DNA of 64,000 nt from Sedimentibacter sp. MB31-C6 (GTDB lineage: Bacteria > Bacillota > Clostridia > Tissierellales > Sedimentibacteraceae), in assembly GCF_035934735.1 (NCBI RefSeq), contig NZ_CP142396.1, forward strand, positions 2,728,001 through 2,792,000. Reading direction: 5' to 3'. A program made the translations under genes and the position numbers. The notes under the pieces were generated by a model. It was given only the letters and a program-made list of their open reading frames with translations, had not been told where the DNA came from and ran no database searches. Of the stretch, positions 16,788 through 47,775 are shown one piece after another; positions within the stretch are counted from its first letter, which is position 1; the number at the start of each line of letters is the position of its first letter.

Positions 16788-17462
16788 ATGTTTAAATTAA
16801 AAAAAGTATATTCATTAATTTTAATCATAATGTTAACTTTATCTGCGAATACACTGGCATTTGCGGCAAATATCACATCAAATTCTTTAGACTATATTGA
16901 TATAAATGAAGATGATTATAAAGAAGCTAATGAGGCATTAATCAAAAAAGGAAATGCCTTAACGAGGTTGAGATCTTCAAAAACGTTAAGTTTAACACAT
17001 TACTATCAGGATGACGACCGTTGGGGAGATGACATAATGGAGACTTGCGGCTCAACCATTGCCTCAGCAGGATGCTGCCTTACAAGTTTTACAATGATAC
17101 AAAGATATTTAGGAGGTTCAGACGATCCGGGAGAAGTCAATGAAGCATTAGGAGATTATGCATGTCCGTTTTATTATTATCAGGCTGCAGATGAATATGA
17201 TTACACTGTACAATACTTTTCCAGCTCCACTCAAACAGATAGTGACGCCATAGATTTTATAGCGGGCTCCATAGATGAAGATAATCCCGTTCTTGTAGGG
17301 ATGGTACACAGTTCAGGCGAGACACACTTTGTTGCGGCTAACGGATATAACGGCGATACAATTTATATAAAAGACCCATCATCATATTATGACCGTTCGA
17401 CCTTGGATGAATATTTAGACAACAATTGGACTGTTAACAGGCTTTGTGTTTATGTTGATTAG
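16788..17462 (+). CDS. secreted C39-like cysteine peptidase
   Basis: The 224-residue protein has a signal peptide (cleavage near AFA, residue 26) and a papain-like C39 domain from residue 70. It begins LTHYYQDDDRWG, places the probable catalytic Cys at 96 (SAGCCLTSFTMI), His at 180 (GETHFVAANGY) and Asp at 196 (YIKDPSS). This fits the Peptidase_C39_2 family of exported proteins, which either cut peptides or bind peptidoglycan. The start is ATG with CAGGAGG upstream. It is the second of three exported-protein genes after the sigma/anti-sigma pair. Confidence 0.82.
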   Translation: MFKLKKVYSLILIIMLTLSANTLAFAANITSNSLDYIDINEDDYKEANEALIKKGNALTRLRSSKTLSLTHYYQDDDRWGDDIMETCGSTIASAGCCLTSFTMIQRYLGGSDDPGEVNEALGDYACPFYYYQAADEYDYTVQYFSSSTQTDSDAIDFIAGSIDEDNPVLVGMVHSSGETHFVAANGYNGDTIYIKDPSSYYDRSTLDEYLDNNWTVNRLCVYVD

Positions 17463-30933: not shown

Positions 30934-31046
30934 ATGTCATCATTTATCTTCAATAATCGACAAAACCTTTCAAAACAAGTCAGAGAAAATTAACTTATAT
31001 AGAAGTATAATAGCTTGTACATTATATAGAAAGGATTGAGTTTATT

Positions 31047-31352
31047 GTGAATATAGAATTTATTGAGATAGGACATGAATTGTTTATTAAGCTTAATGGT
31101 GATTTAGATCATCACAGTTCGGAATCCATAAGAGACATAATTGATGAAAAGATTAAAGATGAAAAATATAAAAAGATAGTAATAGATTTAAAAAAGCTAG
31201 ATTTTATTGACAGCTCAGGTATTGGGTTTGTAATAGGCCGTTATAAAGTAATAAGGAAGCGTAATGGAGTAATAGAAATTATAAATGCTAGCAAAAAGGT
31301 AAGAAAAATACTTGATATGAGCGGCATTGGAAAAATAATAAATATAAAATAG
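31047..31352 (+). CDS. spoIIAA: anti-sigma F factor antagonist SpoIIAA
   Basis: The 101-residue STAS protein contains DFIDSSGIGFVIGRY, with the phosphorylated Ser at about residue 57. It releases sigma F from SpoIIAB in the forespore. The start is GTG with AAAGGATTGAG upstream. An upstream stretch, AGAGAAAAT then GAAGTATAAT, may be a sigma-H promoter, though this is weak. It is followed after 9 bases by spoIIAB. Confidence 0.92.
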   Translation: MNIEFIEIGHELFIKLNGDLDHHSSESIRDIIDEKIKDEKYKKIVIDLKKLDFIDSSGIGFVIGRYKVIRKRNGVIEIINASKKVRKILDMSGIGKIINIK

Positions 31353-31361
31353 GGGGACAAA

Positions 31362-31790
31362 ATGCATAATAACTATGTATATATTAAAATACCAAGCCTT
31401 TCAACAAATGAATCCTTTGCCAGAGCGGCAGTTGCAGCATTCTGTTCAAGTTTAGATCCAACAATTGAAGAATTATCAGACATCAAAACGGCTGTATCAG
31501 AAGCAGTTACAAATGCAATTATTCATGGCTATGAAGATGCTGTTGGGAATGTAGAAATCCAATGTAGAATAAAGGGGCAGATGGTAGAAATAATAGTTGA
31601 AGACTTTGGGTTAGGTATCGTAAATGTAGACATGGCCAGAGAACCGTTGTATACAACCAAGCCAGAACTAGAACGTTCAGGTATGGGTTTCGCTGTGATG
31701 GAGACATTTATGGACGAGCTGGTAGTATTATCTGAAAAAGATGTTGGAACTAAAGTTATAATGAGAAAAACAATTGGTTCTAAAAAGTAG
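31362..31790 (+). CDS. spoIIAB: anti-sigma F factor SpoIIAB
   Basis: The 142-residue GHKL kinase has an N box ([14 protein letters not shown]), G1 (DFGLGI) and G2 ([12 protein letters not shown]). It binds sigma F and phosphorylates SpoIIAA. The start is ATG with AGGGGGA upstream. Unusually, sigF does not follow: the next 135 bases are AT-rich and end in a terminator, then spoVAC follows. Confidence 0.94.
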
Positions 31791-31925
31791 TACTAAATGT
31801 AAAGTTTAAATATTTAAATAATAGTAATATATTAATTAAAATTAAATGATTTTATAAAAAGTTGAATTTAAAGGATTTGTTTAATATGATATTAAATATA
31901 ATAAGAAATATTTTACATAATTTTT

Positions 31926-31956
31926 AAAAAAAGGCACATTTAGTGCTTTTTTTTTG
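31926..31956 (+). terminator. terminator after spoIIAB
   Basis: AAAGGCAC and GTGCTTTT pair, with one G-T wobble, around ATTTA, followed by T residues. It closes the spoIIA operon after its second gene. Confidence 0.85.
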
Positions 31957-32001
31957 TATTCAAAATATTTTTTTGTAAATAATAGTTATGAGGTGATTAG
32001 T

Positions 32002-32121
32002 TTGAAAAAAAAGATTTTTTTATTAGTAATAATTTTAGCCATAAGCTTAACCGCAATAGTTTTTGGAAATAGTATCGATAAATCCCTAAAAGAAATTCCT
32101 GAAAGTGCCATATTATTATAG
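32002..32121 (+). CDS. 39-residue hydrophobic peptide upstream of spoVAC
   Basis: A TTG start preceded by GAGGTGAT opens 39 codons giving a single hydrophobic helix (IFLLVIILAISLTAIVFGNS) after a Lys-rich start, then a short polar tail. It ends 12 bases before spoVAC and lies downstream of the spoIIAB terminator. It is likely the first gene of the spoVA operon. I know no named homologue. It could be a secreted or membrane sporulation peptide. Confidence 0.6.
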   Translation: MKKKIFLLVIILAISLTAIVFGNSIDKSLKEIPESAILL

Positions 32122-32133
32122 TGGAGGAAATAT

Positions 32134-32574
32134 ATGAAATATAATAAGAATAATTATAAGGAGTTAGTAGATGAATTTACTCCCAAGAATAATATGATTA
32201 GAAATTGTATTATGGCATTTATTTTTGGAGGTGCAATATGTACTTTAGGAGAAATATTTAAAAATTTATATATGTCAGGGCTAAGTATACCAGAGGAAGA
32301 AGCTAGTTCAATATCATTAGTTACATTAATAGGACTATCAGCTTTATTAACAGGACTTGGATGGTATGATAATTTAGGTAAAATTGGTGGAGCAGGAACT
32401 GTTGTTCCAATAACAGGTTTTGCAAATTCTGTAGTTTCACCAGCACTTGAATATAAAAAAGAAGGATTTGTTCTTGGAACAGCATCAAATATATTTAAAC
32501 TAGCAGGTCCTGTTTTAGTATATGGATATTTTGCATCCTTTATAGCAGGTTTATTAAGCCTAGTATTAAAATAA
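32134..32574 (+). CDS. spoVAC: stage V sporulation protein AC
   Basis: The 146-residue membrane protein shows the SpoVAC pattern: FIFGGAICTLGEIF, then GTVVPITGFANSVVSPALE and a C-terminal membrane segment. It sits in the spore inner membrane and helps move dipicolinic acid; it acts as a mechanosensitive channel in relatives. The start is ATG with GGAGG upstream. The core trio spoVAC-AD-AE is complete. Confidence 0.94.
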   Translation: MKYNKNNYKELVDEFTPKNNMIRNCIMAFIFGGAICTLGEIFKNLYMSGLSIPEEEASSISLVTLIGLSALLTGLGWYDNLGKIGGAGTVVPITGFANSVVSPALEYKKEGFVLGTASNIFKLAGPVLVYGYFASFIAGLLSLVLK

Positions 32575-32614: not shown

Positions 32615-33607
32615 TTGAAAAAATTAGGTAAACAAACATTTCATATGAAAGATAATGTATTTATTAGAGATGTATACACAATAGTAGGCTCAAAAGAAGG
32701 AGAAGGGCCATTAAAAAATAACTTTGATATGATTATTGAAGATAGTTTATGGGGAGAAGATAGCTGGGAAAAAAGCGAACTTAAATTTCAAAAAACAGCA
32801 GCAGAAAAATTATTAAATAAAAATCATATGCAAAGCAAAATTGATCTTTTAATATCAGGAGATTTATTAAATCAAATAACATCTTCCTCCTTTTCTGCAA
32901 GAGACTTACAAATTCCTTATATAGGAGTTTATGGAGCATGTTCAACTATGGCTTTGACAATGGGACTAGGTGCTATGCTCATAGATGGAGGCTTTGCAAA
33001 TAATATACTATGTGTAACTTCTAGTCATTTTTGTAGCGCAGAAAGACAGTATCGCTTACCTCTTGAAATGGGAGGACAAAGGCATATGTCAGCACAATGG
33101 ACTGTTACAGGTTCAGGAGCAGTATTACTATCTAATATTGGTACAGGTCCGACAATTAAGAATGTAACCTTTGGTAAAATCGAGGACTTGGGAATAAAAG
33201 ATGCTAATAACATGGGAGCAGCGATGGCACCAGCTGCATATAGTTCTTTAAAGCAACATATTATTGATACTGGTATTGATTATGATTTAATTGTAACGGG
33301 AGATTTAGGTACAGTAGGCAAAGGAATAGTAAATAAAATGTTCAATGAAGATAAAATGAGTATTGAGAAAAAATATGATGACTGCGGTACTATAATTTAT
33401 GACTTAGAAAAACAAGATGTTCATGCTGGTGGGAGTGGCTGTGGGTGTTCAGCAGTTGTATTTGGTGCTTTTTTATACAAAAAGCTATTAAAAAAAGAAA
33501 TTAAAAATCTTCTGTTTACTTCAACAGGAGCACTTCACTCTCCTACAGCAACATTACAGGGAGAAAGTATACCTGGTATAGCCCATTGTATAGGAATTGA
33601 AGGATAA
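32615..33607 (+). CDS. spoVAD: stage V sporulation protein AD
   Basis: The 330-residue thiolase-like protein has YGACSTMALTMGLGAMLIDG, CVTSSHFCSAERQYR and TSTGALHSPT, as expected for SpoVAD, which binds dipicolinic acid. The start is TTG with AGAGAGGG upstream. It lies 40 bases after spoVAC and 11 bases before spoVAE. Confidence 0.94.
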   Translation: MKKLGKQTFHMKDNVFIRDVYTIVGSKEGEGPLKNNFDMIIEDSLWGEDSWEKSELKFQKTAAEKLLNKNHMQSKIDLLISGDLLNQITSSSFSARDLQIPYIGVYGACSTMALTMGLGAMLIDGGFANNILCVTSSHFCSAERQYRLPLEMGGQRHMSAQWTVTGSGAVLLSNIGTGPTIKNVTFGKIEDLGIKDANNMGAAMAPAAYSSLKQHIIDTGIDYDLIVTGDLGTVGKGIVNKMFNEDKMSIEKKYDDCGTIIYDLEKQDVHAGGSGCGCSAVVFGAFLYKKLLKKEIKNLLFTSTGALHSPTATLQGESIPGIAHCIGIEG

Positions 33608-33618
33608 AGGAGAATATT

Positions 33619-33975
33619 ATGAATTATGTAATGAGCTTTATTGTTGGCGGAATCATTTGTATGATTTGTCAGATATTTATAGACGTTTTTAAGAAAAACA
33701 ATGCTTACTTATTAGTTATGTTAGTTGTTATAGGTGCTATTTTAGGGTTTTTAGGAATATATGACAAAATTATAGAGGTTGGATATTCTGGAGCTTCTAT
33801 TCCATTATTAGGATTTGGAAATTCACTTGCAAAGGGAGCTATGGAAGAGGCTTCTAGCAAAGGTTTTATGGGTGCTTTAAGCGGAGGAGTAATTAAAACT
33901 GCACCGGGCGTAGCTGCGGCACTGTTATTTGGCTACATAGTTGCAGTAGTTTTCAATCCTAAAAATAAATCGTAA
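33619..33975 (+). CDS. spoVAE: stage V sporulation protein AE (AEb type)
   Basis: The 118-residue membrane protein has three or four helices and the SpoVAE signature SGASIPLLGFGNSLAKGAME. It matches the short AEb form. Start is ATG with AAAGGAG upstream. Confidence 0.93.
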   Translation: MNYVMSFIVGGIICMICQIFIDVFKKNNAYLLVMLVVIGAILGFLGIYDKIIEVGYSGASIPLLGFGNSLAKGAMEEASSKGFMGALSGGVIKTAPGVAAALLFGYIVAVVFNPKNKS

Positions 33976-47261: not shown

Positions 47262-47409
47262 AATAAAAAATCTCTCCCGACATTGGGAAAGATATTATCC
47301 ATATGCATTCTCATCTGCCGGTTAAAAACCGCTGGAATTAGCACCGTATACATAGATTGGTTGCCGGACTTCATAGGGCCAGATCCCTCCGTCGCTCTTG
47401 ATGAATTTA
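47262..47409 (-). promoter_or_regulatory. SAM-I (S-box) riboswitch of the metF operon
   Basis: On the minus strand the leader reads AAGAGCGACGGAGGGATCTG, then GGCCC, TGAAGTCCGGCAACC and GGTGCTAATTCCAGC, the S-box core. The P1 arms are TTCATC and GATGAGAA. A terminator follows with ATCTTTCCC and GGGAGAGAT and T residues. High S-adenosylmethionine would turn off metF, the activation gene and metH. Confidence 0.96.
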
Positions 47410-47544: not shown

Positions 47545-47775
47545 TTAATATAATACTGTGATTGGAAGCAGTAGGTTTGTTCACAATTTAAGAGAGCCGT
47601 CGGACGGTGTGAGACGGTATTGTAAAAGCTGAACTCGTCCATGAGTATTTGAAGCGAAATAAAGTAGTTTCAAACGGTTATACCGTTATAATATTTAAGT
47701 GAGGCTTAATGTCTAATTTGGGTGGTACCGCGGAATCTTCGTCCCAGCAGGGATGAAGATTTTTTGTATTCACTA
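47545..47775 (+). promoter_or_regulatory. T-box leader controlling leuS (tRNA-Leu sensing)
   Basis: The T-box GGGTGGTACCGCGG lies near 47719-47733 and a terminator with AATCTTCGTCCC and GGGATGAAGATT follows. The specifier CTC (Leu) is at 47634-47636 after GAA. The TGGT of the T-box can pair with ACCA, matching the A discriminator of tRNA-Leu. Uncharged tRNA-Leu would switch leuS on. Confidence 0.93.

Follow-up and report, generated by a model that had tools for sequence, protein, structure and literature searches.

A spoIIAA-spoIIAB switch without sigF in the Sedimentibacter family, with SigG as the probable client of SpoIIAB

Sedimentibacter sp. MB31-C6 carries intact spoIIAA and spoIIAB genes, but lacks the sigF gene that accompanies them in the spoIIA operon. 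Genome comparisons indicate that the ancestor of the Sedimentibacter family lost sigF from a spoIIAA-spoIIAB-sigF arrangement. The control system of SigF has been retained and is probably now directed at a closely related sigma factor. We propose, with a probability of roughly 0.65, that SpoIIAB binds and holds SigG, which would be the sole forespore sigma factor in this family. From sequence data we infer all three of the identity of this client, the making of spores and the order of events.

The window, which is the whole 64-kb stretch of DNA that was analyzed, includes the spoIIA locus and the spoVA genes behind it. The spoIIAA gene (31047-31352, plus strand) encodes an anti-anti-sigma factor that scores 113.7 bits with TIGR02886, 1 bit under the cut-off of 114.75, and that matches the Pfam STAS domain. 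The conserved serine of its DSSG motif is present in the translation (LDFIDSSGIG). Upstream lies a TCGACA element (30957-30962, plus strand), which we presume to be a Spo0A box; the pattern is common to 21 of the 24 family genomes examined, and was not found in G017, G025 and G026. The spoIIAB gene (31362-31790, plus strand) encodes the anti-sigma factor and kinase, and scores 196.2 bits with TIGR01925 (cut-off 135).

The spoIIAB stop codon ends at 31790, and a 39-codon membrane-peptide gene starts at 32002, which leaves exactly 211 bases (31791-32001) at the site occupied by sigF in relatives. This space has a GC content of 13.7%, compared with 30% for the window, and has neither SigF similarity nor a visible sigF remnant. 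When nine SigF proteins were compared with the window by tblastn, no convincing match was found, and the best (E 0.037) is at 17349, far from spoIIA. These data confirm the first-pass annotation, which had reported spoIIAA-spoIIAB without an adjacent sigF, an AT-rich gap with a terminator but no sigF fragment, and then a peptide gene and spoVAC. The terminator corresponds to a hairpin with a T tail (31926-31954, plus strand) that resembles intrinsic terminators and closes the spoIIA unit. Its 12-pair stem has a folding energy of -11.6 kcal/mol (z -4.3), and 0 of 200 shuffled sequences were equally good, but the hairpin is absent from the list produced by a simple terminator scan of the window. 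Similar hairpins were recognized by eye at the other spoIIAB loci of the family.

A putative forespore promoter (GTATT-N17-AATAATA, 31956-31984, plus strand) precedes the peptide-spoVA unit, and its sequence suggests that it is of the SigG type. A loose pattern for forespore-type promoters occurs at 20 of the 21 peptide-bearing family loci. The peptide gene (32002-32121, plus strand) is the first gene of the spoVA transcription unit and occupies the site vacated by sigF, and the peptide matches no NCBIfam or Pfam model. Of 24 spoIIAB loci in the family, 21 have this gene; it was not found in G018 and G024, in which spoVAC is apart from spoIIAB, or in G012, in which the contig ends. It is followed on the plus strand by spoVAC (32134-32574; TIGR02838, 182.7 bits, cut-off 164), spoVAD (32615-33607; TIGR02845, 426.6 bits, cut-off 411.8) and spoVAE (33619-33975; TIGR02839, 130.7 bits, 0.4 under the cut-off). 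In the SigF-containing relatives G032, G056 and G057 (L163, L166 and L167), about 1.3 kb separates sigF from spoVAC, which is room for spoVAA and spoVAB. Neither gene was seen at the spoIIA locus in the Sedimentibacter family, from which both are probably gone, and sigF, spoVAA and spoVAB may all have gone in one deletion event. Elsewhere in the window, a SAM riboswitch (47308-47407, minus strand) and a T-box leader (47549-47749, plus strand) are situated back to back and point apart, and a dense run of tRNA genes lies behind a 5S rRNA gene (377-2863).

The remaining switch components appear to be in use. SpoIIAB is full length in the family rows, with intact ATPase boxes, and the motifs NESFAR (NESFTR in one genome) and ELERSGMGF are kept; the arginine of NESFAR presumably contacts sigma. 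Median dN/dS values, calculated over pairs with 0.1<dS<1.5, are 0.071 for spoIIAB (90 pairs), 0.088 for spoIIAA (88 pairs), 0.13 for spoVAC (40 pairs) and 0.135 for the peptide gene (106 pairs). By this measure, spoIIAB is under purifying selection.

It is conceivable that the family is losing sporulation, that sigF went first, and that the spo genes still present are vestigial or have been reused. The low dN/dS values of spoIIAA, spoIIAB and spoVAC, which persist after a loss common to three genera, argue against such decay, whereas the state of SpoIIE could reflect it, as could the disappearance of sigF, and probably of spoVAA and spoVAB, from the locus. The SpoIIE of MB31-C6 is a protein of 510 amino acids (L218:1415-2947; G000:C1:2511914-2513446) with an intact PP2C phosphatase domain (PF07228, 106.1 bits, cut-off 25), but much of the membrane and central region is missing or unrecognizable, and the protein is below the cut-off of the full-length model TIGR02865. 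Frames of 514-566 amino acids, likewise shortened in the N-terminal and central part and with matches that start at model positions 381-463, occur in 21 of the 25 genomes of the genus, and some have a weak extra match at model positions of about 1-145. Only weak PP2C-type matches were found in G004 and G019, and only fragments in G011 and G012. The frames in the sister-genus genomes G025 and G026 have 769 and 776 amino acids and score 321 and 402 bits, and all ten genomes over the SpoIIE model cut-off are outside the Sedimentibacter family. SpoIIR, in contrast, has a match in 36 of the 39 genomes that were searched for it (over the cut-off in 34), and the three without a match are a 70%-complete draft and two controls that have no sporulation genes. 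Four drafts that are 82-88% complete (G011, G015, G017 and G019) retain SpoIIAB and have no detectable sigE or sigG, but the family genomes with the least fragmentation, namely MB31-C6, G024 and G025, contain both genes, and the drafts likely lack the contig that carries sigE and sigG. No report or test of sporulation in MB31-C6 was found in the open-licence literature, but the genus is described as spore-forming (PMC13064008). Taken together, these observations make a loss of sporulation unlikely.

SigE, SigG, SigK, SpoIIE and SpoIIR are all present in MB31-C6. A whole-genome search with the SigF model ranks SigG first, at 297.9 bits (cut-off 321.45), and a SigB-like sigma factor second, at 188.9 bits; the next frames reach at most 114.7 bits. 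SigG scores 444 bits with NF006071, over the cut-off of 372, and 435.5 bits with TIGR02850, under the cut-off of 457. Its gene is part of the order spoIIGA-sigE-sigG (L002). The genes for SigK and the SigB-like factor are at other loci, with rsbV- and rsbW-like genes in front of the SigB-like gene. A tree built from 64 sigma factor rows places all 16 family SigG rows in one SigG clade (100/99), apart from SigF and SigB and together with the SigG rows of f48, a distant family of small-genome Clostridia. The SigF rows are found in three places outside the SigG clade, and the tree program warns of long branches. A second SigG-like sigma factor on contig C177 of G010 was treated as a contaminant and left out of the family counts, because it clusters with the SigG proteins of other families and lacks a neighboring sigE, and because the genome is 7% contaminated.

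The first-pass annotation had also stated that the sigma factor controlled by SpoIIAB must be elsewhere, or that sporulation must be altered. The altered control is upheld by the missing sigF. The client is probably elsewhere, as SigG, behind spoIIGA and sigE about 145 kb away, but it is not a displaced sigF: the genome-wide searches with the SigF model and for sigma region 2 rule out a relocated gene, and no SigF over the cut-off was found in any other family genome searched, which also speaks against an unassembled copy.

Perhaps SpoIIAB instead controls the SigB-like sigma factor encoded behind the rsbV- and rsbW-like genes, which would then replace SigF in the forespore. This factor is present in MB31-C6, is widespread in the order, and is second only to SigG with the SigF model; moreover, a SigB-type sigma might read the GG motif of the promoter before sigG. 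Its RsbW-like partner lacks the N-box asparagine in 8 of 8 aligned family rows, which have SEICxFFI compared with AEACxNAI in several relatives (L007, L131-L137). However, the asparagine is missing also in the relatives G033, G036, G056 and G029, three of which have SigF. SigB-like genes are not tied to sporulation, because they are present in G029 and G046, in which SpoIIAB, SpoIIE and SpoIIR have no match. Also, SpoIIAA and SpoIIAB occur in f48 genomes (G277, G417 and G491) in which no SigB-like gene was found. A role for the SigB-like factor as the client thus appears improbable.

A different or strongly diverged sigma factor, such as one of ECF size or an unrecognizable SigF, is a very unlikely client. 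The sigma region-2 search gave 15 matches in the MB31-C6 genome, of which six were inspected as open frames. However, no other frame comes near SigF, SigG or SigB with the SigF model, and the conserved motifs of SpoIIAB argue for a conserved type of client.

An assembly error or a deletion in a single strain, which the first-pass annotation had raised, has a negligible chance of being correct, since SigF over the cut-off is found in 0 of 25 genomes of the genus and 0 of 2 sister-genus genomes (G025 and G026), including the single-contig genomes G024 and G025, and since the MB31-C6 assembly is a circularized PacBio HiFi assembly at 111.7x, with a chromosome of 3,009,901 bases and a plasmid of 13,652 bases (PMC13064008). 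The same conclusion follows from the order, in which 249 genomes were scanned and matches over the model cut-offs were counted. SpoIIAB is present in 90 and SigF in 65. Outside the family, the 65 genomes with SpoIIAB are identical with the 65 that have SigF, whereas all 25 SpoIIAB-containing genomes inside the family lack SigF over the cut-off, which is why the absence is not attributed to an assembly gap. No SpoIIAB match was obtained in G005 and G021, which complete the set of 27 family genomes. SigG is present with neither SigF nor SpoIIAB in G027, a 96%-complete draft from a neighboring family, and in G214, a 78%-complete draft. Among 80 SpoIIAB loci compared, six are Sedimentibacter-like (L028-L033). 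In the four that reach far enough, spoIIAB is followed by spoVAC with no sigma gene, and L029 and L033 end too early to show what follows. A sigma gene follows spoIIAB at all 74 remaining loci, although in L063 it is cut by the contig end.

The same arrangement is found in a second lineage. In a sample of 293 genomes of the class, each at least 95% complete, SpoIIAB occurs in 209, of which 189 have two SigF/SigG-type genes at E <= 1e-62. The single SigF/SigG match in G264 and G391 is over the SigF cut-off. Another 17 class genomes, like MB31-C6, contain SpoIIAB and one SigF/SigG match that is below the SigF cut-off. A sigma gene is directly behind spoIIAB in 14 of these 17, but not in the remaining three, which are the f48 genomes (L214, L215 and L216; 1.2-1.3 Mb). 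These three keep spoIIAA-spoIIAB with other genes next to it and no sigF, and the only sigma factor of the SigF/G/B type found in them is SigG, encoded behind sigE (the operon was read in G417). Seven class genomes have one SigF/SigG match and no SpoIIAB (G307, G318, G319, G322, G364, G394 and G408); among them, G322 belongs to f48, and its sigma factor is SigG. Because the Sedimentibacter family and f48 both keep spoIIAA-spoIIAB without sigF, it is most simply supposed that sigF has been lost at least twice with SpoIIAB retained.

SigG is the best candidate for the client of SpoIIAB. It is the only factor of the SigF/G/B type found in f48. SpoIIAB of B. subtilis binds SigG, whose E156K variant is refractory to it (PMC3174212). 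The position that corresponds to E156 is acidic (E or D) in all SigG rows inspected: 16 of 16 in the family, 4 of 4 in f48 and 9 of 9 in relatives. This acidic residue is no sign of a new role, because the relatives that have SigF keep it too. SigG of the family was also compared with ten SigG rows of relatives (nine with SigF, and G027). It has 30 fixed changes, 11 of which are to the residue that is commonest in SigF. In columns 148-166, around E156, 4 of 5 changes are toward SigF, compared with 7 of 25 elsewhere (Fisher p=0.047, uncorrected and post hoc), and the helix around E156 has changed from LPKEEVVFALDA to VDKEEIIFALES, which resembles SigF of the relatives. As a control, the relatives were taken one row at a time: 9 of 50 changes in their SigG lead to the SigF residue, as do 2 of 7 within columns 148-166; the overall proportion in the family, 11 of 30, is not a significant excess over 9 of 50 (p=0.11). 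The SpoIIAB-contact helix of the family SigG looks SigF-like, although the statistics are weak. SigG of f48 has no SigF-like drift, with 8 of 33 changes overall and 1 of 3 in the contact helix. Counting against SigG as the client are this lack of drift, the lack of a SigF-type promoter pattern before sigG in f48, the presence of SigG without a SpoIIAB match in G322, and the four drafts that keep SpoIIAB although no sigG was found in them.

The promoter and operon layout fits a scheme in which SigG alone could do both the early and the late forespore work under SpoIIAB. The gap between sigE and sigG is 59-68 nucleotides in 16 family genomes, compared with 75-307 in nine SigF-containing relatives and 131 in G027. 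A SigF-type promoter before sigG was read as GTATA-N14/15-GG..ATAAT, and its -35 element is on the sigE stop codon. This pattern is found in 16 of 16 family rows, whereas mononucleotide shuffles give an expectation of 0.23 rows; it is also found in 6 of 9 relatives and in 0 of 4 f48 rows. In C. difficile, sigG is controlled by SigG and not SigF despite a SigF-type promoter, an additional SigA promoter is found before spoIIGA, and a sigF mutant keeps some spoIIR transcription (PMC7438776). Because sigG of C. difficile is under SigG there, the SigF-type promoter of the family was not accepted as proof of a surviving SigF-like sigma factor.

The spoIIR gene is 8-36 nucleotides behind gerAC, a gene of a germination-receptor operon, in 15 of the 18 family genomes that have the pair (63, 67 and 84 in the other three), compared with 63-248 in 9 of 9 relatives (eight with SigF, and G027). 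No gerAC is beside spoIIR in the family genomes G026, G005 and G017, or in the relative G056. This suggests that spoIIR has lost its own promoter in the family, a reading that depends on the gap and on inspection by eye, because the strict SigF-type pattern finds a match at spoIIR in just 1 of 9 relatives. In the family, the strict pattern is matched in G001, and three more matches are within coding sequence. At the start of the ger operon, SigG-like promoters were recognized by eye, as GTATA-N18-AATATTA in MB31-C6 and GAATA-N18-AATATTA in G024. Ger operons are under SigG control.

In the proposed mechanism, SigG would be produced no later than septation, by transcription that reads through from spoIIGA-sigE, and SpoIIAB would bind and hold it. 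In the forespore, SpoIIE would dephosphorylate SpoIIAA, and SpoIIAB would then release SigG. The released SigG could amplify its own synthesis through the SigF-type promoter that persists behind sigE, and could drive both the early signal, spoIIR, and late genes such as spoVA and ger.

In textbooks, SigF followed by SigG forms the core of forespore development. PMC3533761 includes sigF in its list of genes that occur in every spore-forming bacillus and clostridium, and searches of open-licence PMC papers yielded no description of a spore former that lacks sigF. A lineage described as spore-forming in which the SigF switch persists without SigF would demonstrate that collapse of the cascade is possible. 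Because this lineage lost sigF and kept its switch, a step thought to be universal may be dispensable. The chances seem about even that at least two unrelated lineages of Clostridia form endospores with a single forespore sigma factor, in which SigG, under the control of SpoIIAB, covers the tasks of both factors and the two-step cascade of SigF and SigG is not required. The Sedimentibacter case allows a direct test of why two near-identical forespore sigma factors exist, and of how an anti-sigma factor changes its client.

MB31-C6 shares SpoIIAA, SpoIIAB, the SpoIIE phosphatase domain and the place before the spoVA genes with the spoIIA operons of B. subtilis and C. difficile. It differs from them by lacking sigF and by having the 39-codon peptide gene in the gap, and the terminator-like hairpin and separate forespore-type promoter split spoIIAB from the spoVA unit. 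The rsbV-rsbW-sigB system has a related partner-switching logic, but its copy in MB31-C6 is a separate locus with antagonist genes of its own and a degenerate RsbW-like partner. The SpoIIAB-SigG interaction of B. subtilis involves the same two protein families, and the acidic position corresponding to E156 is shared. PMC3174212, however, assigns this interaction a minor braking role in non-sporulating cells, alongside CsfB and LonA, whereas in the Sedimentibacter family it would be the main switch.
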